Shown: in pieces, positions 15,322-60,122 of the stretch
Numbering within the stretch: position 1 is the stretch's first letter
Layout: each line of letters opens with the position of its first letter
Origin: Curtobacterium sp. TC1
GTDB taxonomy: Bacteria; Actinomycetota; Actinomycetes; Actinomycetales; Microbacteriaceae
DNA: 64,000 nucleotides
Assembly: GCF_019844075.1 (NCBI RefSeq)
Contig: NZ_CP081964.1
Coordinates: 3,162,001 to 3,226,000, forward strand
Direction of reading: 5' to 3'
The notes under the pieces: model-generated
The model's input: only the letters and a program-made list of their open reading frames with translations
Told to the model about the DNA's origin: nothing
The model's database searches: none
Position numbers and translations under genes: made by a program

Positions 15322-15367
15322 GCGGACGGGAGGCACGGTGCCAGCTGGCACCGTGCCTCCCGTCCGC
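15322..15367. repeat. perfect 46-bp palindrome, copy 1 of dispersed family
   Basis: Left arm 15322-15344 begins GCGGACGGGAGGCACGGTG; the right arm 15345-15367 is its exact reverse complement with no loop. It ends 20 bases before the GTG of the AAA+ gene. Related palindromes occur at 26234, 32188 and 60079, and a half copy at 39783. Confidence 0.85.
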
Positions 15368-26233: not shown

Positions 26234-26277
26234 CGGACGGGAGGCGCGGTGCGGGCCCGCACCGCGCCTCCCGTCCG
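26234..26277. repeat. perfect 44-bp palindrome, copy 2 of dispersed family
   Basis: Left arm 26234-26255 begins CGGACGGGAGGCGCGGTGCG and the right arm 26256-26277 is its exact reverse complement. It lies 14 bases upstream of the TetR start and 39 bases past the stop of the binding-protein gene, so it may terminate the ABC operon transcript. Confidence 0.85.
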
Positions 26278-32187: not shown

Positions 32188-32231
32188 CGGACGGGAGGCG
32201 CGGGGCGGGGCCGCCACGGGCCTCCCGTCCG
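32188..32231. terminator. palindromic repeat, copy 3, between convergent genes
   Basis: Arms CGGACGGGAGGC (32188-32199) and GCCTCCCGTCCG (32220-32231) enclose a degenerate GC-rich centre. It fills the whole gap between the convergent lacI and HxlR genes and touches the HxlR stop codon, so it can serve as a bidirectional terminator. It belongs to the same dispersed family as the elements at 15322, 26234 and 60079. Confidence 0.7.
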
Positions 32232-33922: not shown

Positions 33923-34486
33923 TCAACCGCCGGCGCCGCGGCCGGTGATGCGGCGGTTCGTGGCCGTGATGACGGCGCGTTCCCGGTCCGACAAGCCGCC
34001 GGCGAGCAGGATCCGGGCCAGCACCTCGCTCTTGCGCTCGATGTAGTCGTCAATGTCCTGGGCCTCGGCAGCGGCTCGGCGCTTCACCGCGGCGTACTCG
34101 TCCCGGAGCTCCGGATCGGCGCGCAGGACATCGCGGACGGCCAGGTGGTTGCGGAGCGCGAGCGACCCGGCCACGACGACGTAGGTGTTGGTCGGGGCGA
34201 AGTGCTCCGGTGTCCGGAAGGCCTGCCGGTCGGGAACACCGAGGACTCCGCGTGGCTCGAACCCGATCGTGGTCAGCGCTGCGACCGCCGCCGCAACGTC
34301 GCCGGCATCGACCACGATGTCGACGTCGATGACGGGCTTCGCCGCGAGCCCGGGTACCGAGGTGCTGCCGACGTGCTCGATGCTCCGGTATCGAGCGCCG
34401 GCGGCGTCGAGCGCTGCGGCGTAGGCGTCCCGCAACACCGCGAACCGCTCGGGCCAGGACGGCTGGTACTCGACGACCTCGATCAC
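33923..34486 (-). CDS. GrpB family nucleotidyltransferase-like protein
   Basis: 187 residues from GTG 34486. The GrpB signature is clear: VEYQPSWPERFAVLRDAY, IEHVGSTSVPGLAAKPVIDV, DIVV. The fold is nucleotidyltransferase-like with GS and DVD motifs, but biochemical roles are poorly known. The start overlaps the stop of the GNAT gene by 4 bases, so the two are co-translated. The longer open frame upstream has GNAT-overlapping composition and is not expected to be translated in this frame. Confidence 0.85.
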   Translation of the reverse strand: MIEVVEYQPSWPERFAVLRDAYAAALDAAGARYRSIEHVGSTSVPGLAAKPVIDVDIVVDAGDVAAAVAALTTIGFEPRGVLGVPDRQAFRTPEHFAPTNTYVVVAGSLALRNHLAVRDVLRADPELRDEYAAVKRRAAAEAQDIDDYIERKSEVLARILLAGGLSDRERAVITATNRRITGRGAGG

Positions 34487-35025
34487 CGGGTCCGCCGCGT
34501 GGCCGGCGGGGGTGCGAGGAGCTGGAACATGACGTGGTCGCGCCAGGCCCCGTCGATCTTGATGTACTCCGGCGCGAACCCGTAGCGGGTGAACCCGGCG
34601 GACTCGAGGGCACGCTGCGACCCGACGTTCTCCGGAAGGGTCTCCGCCTGCACCCGGTGGAGTCGGAGCACGTCGAACGCGTGGCCGGCGGCAGCGGCGA
34701 CGGCACGGGAGGCGTGGCCCTGGCGGAGTCGGTCGGCGCGGATCCAGTAGCCCATCGCGCACGACTGCAGGGCGCCGCGGGTGATGCCGCTCAGCGTGAT
34801 GCGCCCGAGGAGCTCACCGTCCGTCGATTCGATCACGAACGGGACCGCGGTGCCCGCGCGCTCCGCAGCGAGCGACTGCACGATGACGTCGTGCTGGCCC
34901 TGTTCGGTGAAGTACGCCGGTGCCCGGGTCGGCTCCCACGGTCGCAGGTGCTCGGCGCTCGCGGTGATGACGGCGGCGAGCGTCGCCGCGTCGTCGACGC
35001 GGAGCAGGCGCAACCGGGTGTCCAT
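34483..35025 (-). CDS. GNAT family N-acetyltransferase (RimJ/RimL-like)
   Basis: 180 residues from ATG 35025. GNAT motifs are visible: the acceptor strand SGITRGALQSCAMGYWI, the acetyl-CoA loop RQGHASRAVAAAAGHAF and ENVGSQRALESAGF. The length and opening match ribosomal-protein acetyltransferases. The ATG lies at the edge of the 27-base attachment repeat and lacks a Shine-Dalgarno. Before insertion of the neighbouring element it would have followed tRNA-Ser(UGA) by only a few bases and perhaps shared its transcript. Confidence 0.85.
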   Translation of the reverse strand: MDTRLRLLRVDDAATLAAVITASAEHLRPWEPTRAPAYFTEQGQHDVIVQSLAAERAGTAVPFVIESTDGELLGRITLSGITRGALQSCAMGYWIRADRLRQGHASRAVAAAAGHAFDVLRLHRVQAETLPENVGSQRALESAGFTRYGFAPEYIKIDGAWRDHVMFQLLAPPPATRRTR

Positions 35026-35051
35026 GGCGGAGGGTGTGGGATTCGAACCCA
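35025..35051. repeat. distal attachment site (27-bp direct repeat)
   Basis: Identical to 39645-39671 and equal to the tRNA-Ser 3' end (core GGGTGTGGGATTCGAACCCA). Bases on both sides differ between the two copies, so the repeat is exactly 27 bp. This copy borders the GNAT gene, the original chromosomal neighbour. Confidence 0.9.
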
Positions 35052-35153
35052 ACCCGTTACTCAACACTGACGTGACCGCCTTCGCGCCCTGCTTGTTTTC
35101 GGTACTGTTCGGTCACGCCAAGCCACTTTGATCCCCCCGGGTACCGCATAGTC

Positions 35154-35171
35154 GTGGGCAAAACGTGGGCA
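35154..35171 (+). promoter_or_regulatory. candidate integrase arm-type sites, left end
   Basis: Two GTGGGCA words at 35154-35160 and 35165-35171 are spaced 11 bases, one helical turn. The same pair with the same spacing occurs at 39558-39575, close to the other attachment site. Confidence 0.45.
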
Positions 35172-35190
35172 GGCCAGGCACAGTGAGCGG

Positions 35191-35457
35191 ATGAGCGACA
35201 TCGAGTCCATTATCCGCCGCGTGGTGCGCGAAGAGCTCGAGCGCAACCGTGGCGAGGCTGCGGAGCAGGCGACGGGCAAGCGGGCCTACACCGTACAGAG
35301 CATGTCCGAGGCTTACGAAGTGAGCGTCTCCTACATCAGGAACGACATCGCCGCTGGGAGACTGCGACCGCAGTACCTGAGACGCAAGCCACTGATCGGC
35401 GTCGCAGAGGCCGAGCGCTGGTTCGAGGCGCTCGCGAGCGAGAGACCCAACGTCTAG
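35191..35457 (+). CDS. small helix-turn-helix protein, probable excisionase
   Basis: 88 residues. An N-terminal charged helix (IESIIRRVVREELERNRGEAAEQ) precedes a MerR/excisionase-type wing-helix: AYTVQSMSEAYEVSVSYIRN, DIAAGRLRPQYLRRKPLIGVAEAERW. This matches DNA-binding proteins that direct excision or control phage genes. It is the first gene inside the left attachment site. No strong Shine-Dalgarno precedes the ATG. Whether it acts as Xis or as a regulator is open. Confidence 0.7.
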   Translation: MSDIESIIRRVVREELERNRGEAAEQATGKRAYTVQSMSEAYEVSVSYIRNDIAAGRLRPQYLRRKPLIGVAEAERWFEALASERPNV

Positions 35458-35571
35458 CTGGAGCGCCATCAGACGATCTTGCCCCGCAGGGTCGCGAGGC
35501 TGGGTGCACCGCTTGGGGCTGACTGACTCCTACTCTTCGGAACAACATCCAACGAGGGCGTCACTCAACCG

Positions 35572-36531
35572 CTACAGGGACCGCTCGTCGCGCTCTAATG
35601 GGCTCGCGCTGAGCAACGAGTAGGTCCGCCGCCCACCCACGCTCGAGCTTGAGTTCGAGCGGGTCACCCGCTTGAACGACGCAAGTATTGGTTGGGACGA
35701 CGCCGACCAGGTTGCAATGTCGCGAAGCAGATCATCGTCAGTCACGGCAGCCTCGAATGACTCAGCGCCCCGAGGGGCAAACCACATTCTCCCCACAGAC
35801 CGCCTCTGACCGTCCACTACCCCTTGAAGTGTGACCGTCTCCACTTCCTCGGTACGCGCATCGAGTTCCTCGATCAAGCGACCCGCTGACGGAGCGTCCA
35901 ACTGCAGCGTGACGACGTCTGCTGCAGGTTTCGTCAGGGCACCGCTGACGCTCCACCCTGCACGCGTTACTGCCTTGGCAGCACGTCTGAGCCCGGCGTG
36001 AGCTTCGATCGGAATCCGACTGGCCCAGTCACCCAGTTCAGCCGCACTACTCGACGATCCCGCAGTGGCCAAAAGGCCCGCAACAGCCGTGAGAGAAGAT
36101 GAGTCAACAGCAGCCGTCTCCGCTGACCGCACATCGGTCTCCGGCGCAGTCCGAAGAACTACCCTCACCGAGCCTGGCGCGGGTGCGTAGATCTGCAGCG
36201 TGGACGCCATCCTCGCCCGCCCAAGCGCGGCCTTGGTGACTTCCTTGACAGCCTCAGCGATGCCTCTGACGAGTTCTGCGAACTGCAGTGCGTTCGTGGC
36301 ATGCCCGTCAACCCCTTCACCCTCAAGGTGAAGGTCGAGAGCCGTCGACATCGACGCTTCTTGAAGCTCGCGAAGTACGGAGGCGAGTTTCGGGTCTTGG
36401 CCAGCCGACAGTTCGAGCGATCGCCTTGCCACTCGGCCGGCGAACGAGTCAGGGTTGGGGAGCACTGCCCACGCAGCACGGAGCGAATCCTCGAGACTCG
36501 GCACGGATGCACCCCCGTCGGTCAAACTCAT
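35572..36531 (-). CDS. hypothetical protein, partner of DUF6932 nucleotidyltransferase
   Basis: 319 residues, family not recognised. The first 110 residues are mainly helical. A middle beta-rich region contains STLQIYAPAPGSVRVVLRT, then VTLQGVVDGQRRSVGRMWF near 235-253, resembling a small beta-barrel, and ends with ASFKRVTR...RRTYSLLSAS. No membrane segment or signal peptide. It overlaps the nucleotidyltransferase gene by 4 bases (ATGA), so the two are stoichiometrically expressed. It may be an inhibitor, sensor or second effector subunit of that enzyme; this is inference. Confidence 0.65.
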   Translation of the reverse strand: MSLTDGGASVPSLEDSLRAAWAVLPNPDSFAGRVARRSLELSAGQDPKLASVLRELQEASMSTALDLHLEGEGVDGHATNALQFAELVRGIAEAVKEVTKAALGRARMASTLQIYAPAPGSVRVVLRTAPETDVRSAETAAVDSSSLTAVAGLLATAGSSSSAAELGDWASRIPIEAHAGLRRAAKAVTRAGWSVSGALTKPAADVVTLQLDAPSAGRLIEELDARTEEVETVTLQGVVDGQRRSVGRMWFAPRGAESFEAAVTDDDLLRDIATWSASSQPILASFKRVTRSNSSSSVGGRRTYSLLSASPLERDERSL

Positions 36532-37028
36532 GCGATCACCTCCAGGAAGCCCTTCTCTGTATTCTGCACCTGGGCACCGTCAGGACCCTTGACCTGGCCC
36601 CAAAACTGCCGCCAGTACAGGGTGGTGTCCGGGTCGCTGCGCAGCCCCACGAAGCCGTCTACCTTGCCGCCCATCGGCTGCACGCGGACGCCCGCTGCGT
36701 TCTTGTCAGTCTGCAGACTCTCGAATATGGCCTGCTGCGAAGGGTCAAGGGCATCCAGGTCGCTCTGACGAACGAAGAAGGCCACGTCGATGTCAGTCGG
36801 TGCTGCCCAGCTCTTGTGCGTGACGAATCCTCCATCGACCCAGCATCGTGCACCGGGAAACAACGAACGGACGGAGTCCATCCAGACGCTGAACGCGTCG
36901 AAGATGACCTGTCGCTCCGACGAAAACGGTGCTCCGAGGACGAAAACCTGTTGGATCTCGTCCATCGAACATGGGTGCTTCCCTGGGGGAAGCAGGCCGT
37001 ACGGGCCTGAAGTGCTTGGGATTGGCAT
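36528..37028 (-). CDS. DUF6932 family nucleotidyltransferase-like protein
   Basis: 166 residues. The opening MPIPSTSGPYGLLPPGKH and WVDGGFVTHKSWAAPTDIDV fit the DUF6932 family. The latter contains a polymerase-beta nucleotidyltransferase core: a G-G/S turn at 66-67 and the metal-binding D79 and D81. ATG 37028 is preceded by a strong AGGAGG that is also one arm of a hairpin. It heads a two-gene unit inside the integrated element. Both reading frames are intact although neighbours are decayed. A defence or toxin-antitoxin role is plausible but unproven. Confidence 0.75.
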   Translation of the reverse strand: MPIPSTSGPYGLLPPGKHPCSMDEIQQVFVLGAPFSSERQVIFDAFSVWMDSVRSLFPGARCWVDGGFVTHKSWAAPTDIDVAFFVRQSDLDALDPSQQAIFESLQTDKNAAGVRVQPMGGKVDGFVGLRSDPDTTLYWRQFWGQVKGPDGAQVQNTEKGFLEVIA

Positions 37029-37032
37029 ACCC

Positions 37033-37048
37033 CTCCTGTATCCAGGAG
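37033..37048 (-). promoter_or_regulatory. hairpin covering the Shine-Dalgarno of the DUF6932 gene
   Basis: On the mRNA strand CTCCTG and CAGGAG form a 6-bp stem with a GATA loop, ending 4 bases before the ATG. The 3' arm contains the ribosome binding site, so folding would hide it. Confidence 0.55.
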
Positions 37049-37126
37049 TGAACTTACCTCATCGCGCGAGCGGTAGCGCGGTGCTCTCGACGTAGCGATG
37101 TCGGGGGCCGTCCGCAGTATCGGAGC

Positions 37127-37416
37127 ATGCTCGAGCACAAGTGGGCTCCCCCGGAGCATCCCGACGTCACCCTTCACCAGCCCGTGATGCTGGACGCCGA
37201 CGCCGCGGGCGAGCTGCGGACCCTCGATCCTGTCGCGCCGGTCTGGGCTGACATCGAGTTCGTGAGCATTGGGCTGTGCTGCACCTCAAGTGCTTCGCCG
37301 CTGCTGAGTCGGAGTCCGCGGTGCTCGTTCAGACGGCGTGGCAGGGGCGGCTGCAGCAGGTGCTCGTTGCTCGCGAGATGGTCACGCGACGCACGTTGGC
37401 CCCTCGGGCGCGTTGA
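37127..37416 (+). pseudogene. frameshifted small hypothetical gene
   Basis: From ATG 37127 (GGAG just upstream) a frame encodes MLEHKWAPPEHPDVTLHQPV...VWADIEF, then becomes unlikely coding. Another frame gives EHWAVLHLKCFAAAE...TRRTLAPRAR and ends at TGA 37416, which overlaps the next ATG. Joining them needs one frameshift near 37262. Either it is a decayed gene or only the second part (GTG 37276, 46 residues) is translated. Function unknown. Confidence 0.5.
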
Positions 37417-37676
37417 TGGCCCGTAGACGTCGCAACAGGTGGGCGTTGGGGCCGGCTTACTCCCTCCCCGAAATCGCGCGCGGAGGCCCCGACTACGACG
37501 TCACACCGCCCGCTCCGGTCCTCGCATGGGTGCAGTTCCCTAACCAGATCCTCGAGATTGAGGCACGAGTCATCGCCTACACGGAGCGGGCGGTTCTCGT
37601 TGAGTGGGGTTTTGGCCAGGCTGCAGAGTCAGCGTGGCTCGGGCGGGATGCCATTCGAGCCCCCGAACGGGCGTGA
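37416..37676 (+). CDS. small hypothetical protein of the integrated element
   Basis: 86 residues from ATG 37416, starting with a basic MARRRRNRWALGP and followed by LAWVQFPNQILEIEARVIAYTERAVLVEWGF, probably a small beta structure. Its ATG shares one base with the upstream stop (TGATG), a coupling signal. No family recognised; proteins of this size and basic N-terminus are common in actinophages. Confidence 0.55.
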   Translation: MARRRRNRWALGPAYSLPEIARGGPDYDVTPPAPVLAWVQFPNQILEIEARVIAYTERAVLVEWGFGQAAESAWLGRDAIRAPERA

Positions 37677-37714
37677 GCGGTTCGCGTCACCTCGCCCATA
37701 GAGTGATCCTCACT

Positions 37715-38323
37715 ATGAAGACCCTTACCCGAACGGCCGCAACCATCGCTGTCCTTGCAGGTGCAATCGCCCTCGCTGGATGTTCAGACGAGTCCGGACC
37801 AGTCGCTGGCACGGCAGTCCCGGCGAAGGCCACGACGAGCACACCCACGCCCACTCCGACTCCCGAGGCCAAGGTCGGCACTCGGGCGAACCCGTTCGCG
37901 GTAGGCGCACCAGGCAAGCACTCGTCGGACTCCGTGTGGACCTTCACCTGGGATGCCACAAACGGCGACGGTTGGGCCGAGATCCAGAAGGCAAACGAGT
38001 ACAACGAAGCGCCGGCTGCTGGGCAGTCATTTGTTCTCTCGTCGACCACGGTCGGGGCTGACGCAGGAGTTGGCGCGGAGGGCGGAGACCCTGTTGCGAG
38101 CTTCACGATCAGTTACGTCGGCTCGGACGGCAACACCTATCCGGCCATCGGCGATTGCGGCGTGCTCCCGGGTAAAGCTGTATACGAGATCGGGCGCATG
38201 TACGCGAACGCCTCGCAGAAGGGCTACGTCTGTTCCGTTGTGCCAACTGAGGCGGTGGCGGGCGGTACCTGGAATGTGCAGGCGCTCGTCGGCTCCGGGA
38301 CTGCGTTCTTCGCCGGGGCTTAG
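37715..38323 (+). CDS. secreted lipoprotein, function unknown
   Basis: 202 residues from ATG 37715. The signal peptide ends in a lipobox AIALAGCS with the lipid-carrying Cys near residue 23. A Thr-Pro linker (TSTPTPTPTP) follows, then a beta-rich domain from about residue 57 (RANPFAVGAPGKHSSDSVW) with two Cys (DCGVLP and YVCSVV) that may pair. The fold resembles DUF4352-like surface lipoproteins of Gram-positive bacteria. It is cargo in the integrated element and is followed by a strong terminator. Confidence 0.75.
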   Translation: MKTLTRTAATIAVLAGAIALAGCSDESGPVAGTAVPAKATTSTPTPTPTPEAKVGTRANPFAVGAPGKHSSDSVWTFTWDATNGDGWAEIQKANEYNEAPAAGQSFVLSSTTVGADAGVGAEGGDPVASFTISYVGSDGNTYPAIGDCGVLPGKAVYEIGRMYANASQKGYVCSVVPTEAVAGGTWNVQALVGSGTAFFAGA

Positions 38324-38349
38324 GAACAAGCGTCCCACGCACGACGAAA

Positions 38350-38380
38350 CGCCCCGCCCCTCGAAGTGAGGGGCGGGGCG
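38350..38380. terminator. hairpin terminator between lipoprotein and SGNH remnant
   Basis: CGCCCCGCCCCTC (38350-38362) pairs exactly with 38368-38380 around a 5-base loop. It separates two convergent coding regions, so it can act in both directions. Confidence 0.8.
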
Positions 38381-38386
38381 AGTGTG

Positions 38387-39026
38387 TTAGACGAGAGCGA
38401 GTCCGGCGTCGACGAGTGTGGCGATGCGTTCCATGCCCGCCTCGTTTGAGTGGCGCAGGTCACTCATGTAGCCTTGCGCGTTCCAGTTGTCCCACGTGCC
38501 GGCTTCCTTGTTCAGGTCCATGAACGCGTAGGAAGTGGCGTAGCGGGTGCGGAGTGCGTGCTGCTGCTGCTGCTGCTGCTGGAGAGTTGCTTCGGTGGGG
38601 TTTTGGCATGGCACGGATGACAGGTCGATGAAGTCAGCGTTGACGCTCGCAGCGGCTGCGGCGAGGACGTTGGGGGTTCGTGACGACCTGCTTCGCTGTG
38701 TAACCACCCACCGCGTCGTTCGCGCCGAGCAGGCAGATGACGACGGAAGGCTGGTACGCCTGGATCATCGCAGCACTGTAAATGCCCACACCGTTCGCCC
38801 ACGTGGTGCTGTTCGTAGATGGTGCGCCAGCGTTCGACACGCGGATGCGCTTCGACGTTGACAGCCACGGCTCAACGAACAGAATCCCACCGGTACCGAC
38901 GGCAGTGATCGACAGGACGTGGCTGGTGCTCGCGGCCGCCGCGCTGATGGTCAGCTTGCCGATGCTTACGGTGCCGGTCGTGTCGCTCGTGACTGCGGTC
39001 TCGGAGTCGACCTTGCTCCCGCTTCT
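38387..39026 (-). pseudogene. SGNH/GDSL-type hydrolase, truncated and frameshifted
   Basis: Two frames together give an SGNH-hydrolase-like C-terminal half. The upstream part has VVICLLGANDAVGGYTAK (block with GxND) and the downstream part NVLAAAAASVNADFIDLSSV and YMSDLRHSNEAGMERIA (block with DxxH-like region). The frame changes at a run of five C (38672-38676, shown as G on the plus strand); removing one C restores it. The 5' end is lost where the sequence meets the integrase remnant. A (CTG)7 run at 38561-38581 encodes seven Gln. Probably a former phage structural or tail gene. Confidence 0.7.
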
Positions 39027-39608
39027 GGGGACCGCGCGACGCTGATCCTGGTACTCGCGTACTGCGGGCTCCGATGGGGCGAAGCGACGGGTCTGCGCGT
39101 GAAGGACCTGGACATGCTGCGCCGCCGCATCAACGTCGCGGTGGACGCGGTGAATGTCGGCGGGGTGATCGAGGTCGGTACGCCGAAGACGCACAAGCGC
39201 CGCTCCGTGCCGTTTCCAGCGTCGCTCGCTATCCCGCTCGCGAGACAGTGCGAGGGCAAGAGCTCGGACGCGTTGGTGTTTGCGTCGAAGCACGGGACGC
39301 ACGAGCGACGGTGGCACAACGACCACGGCTGGTTCCCCGTGGCAGTTCGGACGTCCGGTGTACCGGACCTCACCCCGCATGATCTCCGGCACACAGCGGC
39401 TTCCCCCGCGATCAGTGCTGGTGCGAACGTGAAGGCCGTGCAGCGGATGCTCGGCCACGCCTCCGCAGCGCTGACACTCGACGTGTAGGCCGACCTGTTC
39501 GAAGACGACCTGGACATCGTTGCGGGCCGCCTCGATGACGGGCTCGCGCAGACGGTTGTGGGCAAGATGTGGGCAGAGGCCGCCCGGAACGAAGACGAGG
39601 CCCGCTAG
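39027..39608 (+). pseudogene. tyrosine recombinase (phage integrase), truncated with internal stop
   Basis: Only the catalytic half remains: LILVLAYCGLRWGEATGLRV (first catalytic Arg), TPKTHKRRSVPFP (Lys), HDLRHTAAS (His-x-x-Arg) and MLGHASAALTLDV. The next codon is TAG at 39486-39488, exactly where relatives have the nucleophilic Tyr, and the frame continues as ADLFEDDLDIVAGRLD to TAG 39606-39608. The N-terminal arm-binding and core-binding domains are missing. It lies beside tRNA-Ser(UGA), its presumed target. It cannot be catalytically active as read. Confidence 0.88.
39558..39575 (+). promoter_or_regulatory. candidate integrase arm-type sites, right end
   Basis: GTGGGCA at 39558-39564 and 39569-39575, spaced 11 bases as at the left end. 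They lie in the 3' end of the integrase remnant, 70 bases from the attachment repeat. Confidence 0.4.
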
Positions 39609-39644
39609 ATCCGCTTGTTGCTGCGGATCAACGGACCTCGGTAG

Positions 39645-39671
39645 TGGCGGAGGGTGTGGGATTCGAACCCA
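39645..39671. repeat. tRNA-proximal attachment site (27-bp direct repeat)
   Basis: Exact copy of 35025-35051. It includes the acceptor 3' strand, the T arm and the discriminator base of tRNA-Ser(UGA), so the tRNA remains complete after insertion. Confidence 0.9.
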
Positions 39672-39732
39672 CGAGACATCTCTGCCCACCTGTTTTCAAG
39701 ACAGGCTCCATCGGCCGCTCGGACAACCCTCC
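39648..39732 (-). tRNA. tRNA-Ser (anticodon UGA)
   Basis: 85 bases. Acceptor GGAGGGT/ACCCTCC, anticodon loop CTTGAAA with TGA (UGA), long variable arm and T loop GGGTTCGAATCCC. The tRNA is intact and its 3' end is the insertion site of the neighbouring element. No CCA encoded. Confidence 0.95.
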
Positions 39733-60078: not shown

Positions 60079-60122
60079 CGGACTGGAGGCGCGGGGCGGG
60101 CCCGCACCGCGCCTCCAGTCCG
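60079..60122. repeat. 44-bp palindrome, copy 4 of dispersed family
   Basis: Left arm 60079-60100 starts CGGACTGGAGGCGCGG and pairs with 60101-60122 with one mismatch. Compared with the other copies the word GACGGGAGGC has become GACTGGAGGC in both arms, a compensated change. It lies between the ATP-grasp and monooxygenase genes. Confidence 0.8.

Follow-up and report, generated by a model that had tools for sequence, protein, structure and literature searches.

A probable derivative of a phage-like integrative element, with a dead integrase and a two-gene cargo, at tRNA-Ser(UGA) of Curtobacterium sp. TC1

Prophages, satellites and other integrative elements that target transfer RNA (tRNA) genes (the phrog_1 and phrog_216 type) have their core in the 3' end of the tRNA and an integrase convergent with it, together with an excisionase-like gene toward the other end and arm-like repeats. 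Cis-mobilizable elements have an attachment site on either side of their cargo and lack a working integrase. A 4.6-kb element of Curtobacterium sp. TC1, which lies at tRNA-Ser(UGA) in a 64,000-nucleotide stretch of contig NZ_CP081964.1 (hereafter the window), shares these features with both. It departs from the former in that its integrase is truncated and interrupted by a stop, and in that no capsid, terminase or conjugation gene is recognized in its scanned open reading frames (ORFs); unlike the latter, its ancestry looks phage-like. We consider it likely that this element, with its dead integrase, arose by deletion from an integrative element of phage-like character and about 10 kb.

The element carries two overlapping genes, coding for a nucleotidyltransferase (NTase)-like protein of the DUF6932 family and a partner, which have their own counterparts among described systems. 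MNT-HEPN, AbiE and MenAT are NTase-type toxin-antitoxin systems and, like the window pair, consist of two tightly packed genes in an operon, one of them for a small NTase, whereas the partner in the window ends in an OB fold and belongs to no Pfam family. PDC-M63AB, in the PADLOC collection, is likewise a two-gene system found in phages or prophages, and the first window gene matches its PDC-M63A component; the second gene, in contrast, has no PDC-M63B match. Since the partner is not PDC-M63B by the available model, the cargo pair would be at most a new variant of this candidate defence system.

The insertion and its tRNA target

The 4.6 kb separate tRNA-Ser(UGA) (39645..39732, minus strand; ARAGORN), which is intact, from a GNAT gene (34483..35025, minus strand; PF13302, E 2.2e-21) that adjoins the tRNA in empty sites. 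They are edged on both sides by a 27-bp exact direct repeat, with copies at 35025-35051 (the distal one) and 39645-39671 (the tRNA side), 4,620 bp apart from start to start. The 27-mer is the 3' end of tRNA-Ser(UGA) and occurs genome-wide at only these two places, even with up to two mismatches allowed; the number of exact 27-bp repeats expected by chance within 8 kb is, by arithmetic, about 2e-9. Only one other direct-repeat family, a palindromic 44-nt repeat, was found in the 64-kb window (seeds of 20, length of at least 22). With its tRNA-side copy the tRNA is whole, while the distal copy overlaps the start codon of the GNAT gene (complement of CAT, 35024-35026).

We compared the stretch downstream of tRNA-Ser(UGA) in 36 same-genus genomes (G000 to G035, G000 being that of the window); the sample includes incomplete genomes, among them G022 (73%), G025 (65%) and G034 (76%), and six further genomes of the genus enter only the integrase search. 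The GNAT gene directly follows the tRNA in 12 of the 36 (G001, G005, G008, G009, G011, G014, G015, G022, G026, G030, G031 and G032). Repeat-flanked insertions separate the two genes in four, namely the window (4,620 bp), G006 (about 3.6 kb), G002 (9.3 kb) and G016 (10.2 kb), and their contents are mostly different. A 415-aa integrase of a second and distantly related family, about 24% identical, is encoded 0.8-1.4 kb downstream of the tRNA in another two, G007 (L120) and G035 (L081), for which no distal repeat was found within the stretch examined. No GNAT orthologue was found in the examined stretch downstream of the tRNA in 16/36 genomes, and the site is unreadable in two, G020 and G029, where no tRNA-Ser was found. 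A candidate second core copy in G012 was rejected as the tRNA itself, mis-anchored, and this genome stays among the 16. In G003 (L073) the GNAT gene is missing, and 28 bp separate the tRNA from the start of the gene, GrpB-like by eye, that comes after GNAT in the window; the arrangement resembles the outcome of a deletion.

A sequence-only reading of this DNA had proposed that the 4.6 kb lie between exact 27-bp copies of the tRNA 3' end, that the tRNA is whole at the proximal copy and the GNAT gene touched by the distal one, and that a tyrosine-recombinase-type insertion produced this arrangement. The repeat and genome searches, the coordinates and the empty junctions bear it out on all three counts: repeats of the tRNA 3' end stand at both boundaries, and relatives hold the uninterrupted site. 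The genomes nearest to that of the window by GNAT identity (96-98%), G002 and G006, hold other insertions than it does; hence, the site turns over.

The integrase remnant and the class of element

The insertions of G002 and G016 code for full 372-aa integrases, convergent with the tRNA and 92% identical to each other. The window holds the equivalent of residues from about 174 to 372 of these relatives (39009..39608, plus strand; PF00589, E 4.6e-21), with 79% identity to the G016 integrase over residues 174-372 and a single in-frame TAG; the first 173 residues are missing. This TAG replaces the tyrosine of the relatives' DVYADLF motif at residue 333, which we take to be the catalytic tyrosine. 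The lost N-terminus and the stop leave the element without a functional integrase of its own, and we therefore refer to it as a derivative or remnant. DNA similarity to G002 and G016 begins at 39009, presumably a deletion join, immediately beside a frame-broken GDSL/SGNH-like gene that ends there (38387..39008, minus strand; PF13472, E 0.0019, below the family cut-off).

Toward the distal end, an 88-aa excisionase-like gene (35191..35457, plus strand; phrog_66, E 1.2e-5) is common to the window and G016 (68% over 71 aa). Part of a 112-aa ORF (37338..37676, plus strand) is common to the other three insertions (68-77% over 22-73 aa), its similarity in G002 consisting of scraps on both strands. 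A 202-aa ORF that is lipoprotein-like on account of a lipobox noted by eye (37715..38323, plus strand) has no family match and no match in phages.

The motif GTGGGCAANNNGTGGGC occurs as an exact match near the distal end (35154..35170, plus strand) and a second time close to the tRNA, within the integrase remnant (39558..39574, plus strand). Among the four repeat-flanked insertions it stands free of mismatches in all four at 130-131 bp from the distal core, counted from that core's outer edge, and in three at 113-115 bp from the other core, counted from its tRNA-side edge; G006, which has lost its integrase, has also lost the tRNA-side motif. With up to two mismatches, we counted 2, 2, 1 and 3 copies in G000, G002, G006 and G016, against means of 0.07-0.19 and maxima of 1, 2, 1 and 2 in 200 single-base shuffles of each element; the third copy in G016 and one further place in the window match with two mismatches or less well. 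The exactness and the fixed distances, more than these counts, argue that the paired motifs, with GTGGGCA pairs near each end, are likely arm-type integrase sites. At up to two mismatches the motif also occurs somewhere in 18 of 31 integrase loci (30 plus one viral contig).

Relatives of the integrase at E <= 1e-80 are found in 67 of 299 genomes of the family, and 25 of the 30 best family loci have a tRNA in their flanks (16 Ser, 5 Leu, 3 Met with Thr and 1 Thr). The nearest phage integrases, of the Gordonia phages Finkle and Schmidt, are about 45% identical, and the contig with the nearest viral integrase (L160, 10 kb) has only this gene in common with the G016 element at E 1e-4. Because the cores and arm-like motifs of the window element are intact, a related integrase could still mobilize it, and the element might accordingly be a small non-autonomous unit that continues to move in this way. 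The open excisionase-like gene and the frequency of related integrases in the family speak for this alternative. It is nonetheless improbable: the one match at E <= 1e-80 in the genome of the window is the remnant itself, and the core is absent elsewhere in that genome beyond its two copies. By itself, the element is probably immobile.

The content of the other insertions bears on its ancestry. Genes in the G016 insertion specify a tail protein of phage type (phrog_15881, E 1.3e-41), a protein resembling those of replication initiation (phrog_2447, E 5.1e-12) and one like a repressor, and the G002 insertion codes for an Abi_2 protein (E 1e-6). The latter insertion also has a second integrase that differs from the first, the two lying toward opposite ends (L070, 1722-3011 and 9698-10816). 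The genes of a complete prophage are not seen: Pfam and PHROGs recognize no capsid, portal or terminase in the scanned ORFs of the 4.6 kb, and no capsid or terminase in the scanned ORFs of G016 or in the subset of ORFs scanned in G002 and G006. We assign these insertions to a known kind, integrative elements that are phage-like, measure about 10 kb and vary in their cargo, of which the window copy is a new member. The literature library that we searched yielded no paper on Curtobacterium with an integrase, tRNA-Ser and a prophage.

As a deletion derivative, the window element would have arisen as follows. A 372-aa tyrosine integrase would have carried out recombination at a core measuring about 22-27 bp within the tRNA-Ser(UGA) 3' end, such that one core copy completes the tRNA and the other falls at the GNAT start codon, as the empty and occupied sites together show. 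A later deletion would then have taken the N-terminus of the integrase and left the GDSL-like gene against the remnant, to judge from where the similarity begins.

The Pfam and PHROGs matches agree with the sequence-only reading that the 4.6 kb contain excisionase-like, integrase, phage-like and cargo genes, and the missing residues and the stop with its view that the integrase is dead; its two-gene cargo is indeed intact. The full-length relatives that it looked for at this tRNA exist in G002 and G016, as do the empty junctions, and the gene order of the 4.6 kb is not general among relatives, the cargo genes being otherwise found, within the genus, only in G020 and G031, and not at tRNA-Ser(UGA). 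Its description of the element as fixed holds for the dead integrase, but not for the cores and arm-like motifs, which are intact, or for the site, which varies between relatives. That the element is domesticated found no support, as no sign of host use was seen.

The nucleotidyltransferase and OB-fold gene pair

The first cargo gene (36528..37028, minus strand) codes for the NTase-like DUF6932 protein (PF22014, E 7.7e-25) and overlaps by 4 nt with the second (35572..36531, minus strand), which codes for the 319-aa partner. All five residues of the signature GG...DxD...D, which characterizes the pol-beta-superfamily NTases, are kept in all 38 DUF6932 sequences, and the protein may have an NTase-like fold, to judge from structure comparison. 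The C-terminus of the partner is an OB fold by the same approach, the PDB matches covering this part alone. OB folds are common, and an OB fold alone indicates no function. The partner stays below every curated cut-off of Pfam and NCBIfam and has no clear PADLOC family. Its model matches a viral DUF6575 protein in Foldseek (E 2.9e-11), but with TM-scores of 0.43/0.38 and a root-mean-square deviation of 12.8. One study (PMC9519451) lists DUF6575 as a new defence domain; as Pfam finds no DUF6575 in the partner, this likeness is only a lead.

The PADLOC model of the candidate defence protein PDC-M63A recognizes the DUF6932 protein at E 1.2e-19, whereas the partner has no PDC-M63B match at E <= 0.1. 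Over the whole genome, the PDC-M63B model (PDLC04746) matches only another place (E 0.48), and it gives one weak match (E 0.02) in 21 genomes and phage records. Run on the proteins of eight relatives, PADLOC matches two NTases to M63A, and one distant partner, from Blastococcus (L098), reaches a PDC-M63B model at E 0.052.

Relatives of the cargo pair are found in many actinobacteria and one phage. The partner gene lies directly downstream of DUF6932 in all 33 loci of named genomes and in the Gordonia phage Holliday, where both genes stand beside the immunity repressor and the partner profile matches gene 52 (E 5.4e-71). In the prophage prophiGD21-3 of M. abscessus, an NTase gene is located between repressor and integrase, and the partner profile has no match to gene 2 at E <= 10. 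A partner match in G023 (38 residues, E 1.7e-4) was not counted as a relative. The idea that the cargo commonly comes from phages was rejected, since only 7 of 50,697 phage records have a tblastn match to DUF6932 and one to the partner. Compared crudely, the G031 and G020 copies show nonsynonymous (dN) and synonymous (dS) divergences of 0.10 and 4.0 (saturated) for the partner, and of 0.19 and 0.94 for DUF6932, a gene with an uncertain N-terminal start; these values are suggestive of constraint on the cargo genes. In G031 (L079, 7126-16652), an OLD-like ATPase ORF and ORFs resembling TniQ and TniB (named by eye) are found in the vicinity of the pair, which suggests that it is carried there on a Tn7-like transposon.

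We tentatively propose that the cargo pair is a toxin-antitoxin-like or abortive phage-defence module, because an overlapping NTase and OB-fold pair on mobile DNA most resembles such modules; we hold this to be plausible without rating it probable. In such a module, the NTase would add nucleotides to RNA or protein, and the OB-fold partner would bind nucleic acid and restrain or direct the NTase. A possible, if doubtful, alternative is that the two genes serve lysogeny or modify the host, for instance by acting on RNA or phage development. Their place beside the Holliday immunity repressor and the position of the prophiGD21-3 NTase would fit this, as would the one published deletion of PDC-M63AB, from a prophage of E. 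coli NILS69, in which no contribution of that pair against 10 phages was seen (PMC12409345). On the other side, PDC-M63A is counted among candidate defence proteins, and in many of 35 loci (by homemade gene calls) the pair is away from recognized prophage genes. The literature library yielded no paper on DUF6932 and one on PDC-M63, and searches of it for phiT46-1 with a nucleotidyltransferase, or for an NTase with an OB fold in an anti-phage, prophage or toxin-antitoxin context, returned none.

The junction of tRNA and GNAT gene

In all 12 empty sites, the GNAT gene begins, in frame, with an ATG 2-4 nt beyond the tRNA discriminator base, and trimming of the tRNA 3' end would therefore free a leaderless GNAT mRNA. 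In the window, the distal core rebuilds this start codon, and the DNA upstream of it is that of the element. If the GNAT gene is read through from the tRNA, 3' processing would thus give a leaderless message, and an insertion would break the link; in part of the genus, the message might arise by tRNA maturation, with the inserting elements cutting it off and acting as an on/off switch. We consider this unlikely. In Streptomyces coelicolor, 264 leaderless mRNAs and cuts within encoded CCA ends have been described, and the part of that report available to us offers no direct precedent for a tRNA-derived leaderless message (PMC4681348).

It follows from the same geometry that the insertion could matter mainly by its position, in separating the GNAT gene from a tRNA whose processing supplies the leaderless message, a view to which we likewise give little weight. 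Apart from the constant spacing in the empty sites and the element DNA now set upstream of the restored codon, it draws on a promoter scan that found nothing at the GNAT-side end of the element and one site on the other strand, at 38858, with a consensus that is weak for actinobacteria. This weakness counts against it, as do the 14 more distant homologues (L019-L032), none of which has a tRNA beside the GNAT gene, and the 16 genomes of the genus that have no GNAT neighbour.

Elsewhere in the window, the palindromic 44-nt repeat (CGGACGGGAGGC...GCCTCCCGTCCG) has four copies, at 15323-15366, 26234-26277, 32188-32231 and 60079-60122, which are perhaps hairpins or terminators.

The junction is a tRNA-mRNA boundary so close that a leaderless message could come from tRNA processing, and it has been interrupted repeatedly by integrating elements. 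The element in the window is itself of an ordinary kind, and what it exposes, together with this junction, is a conserved actinobacterial pair of NTase and OB-fold genes, both of them open to testing.

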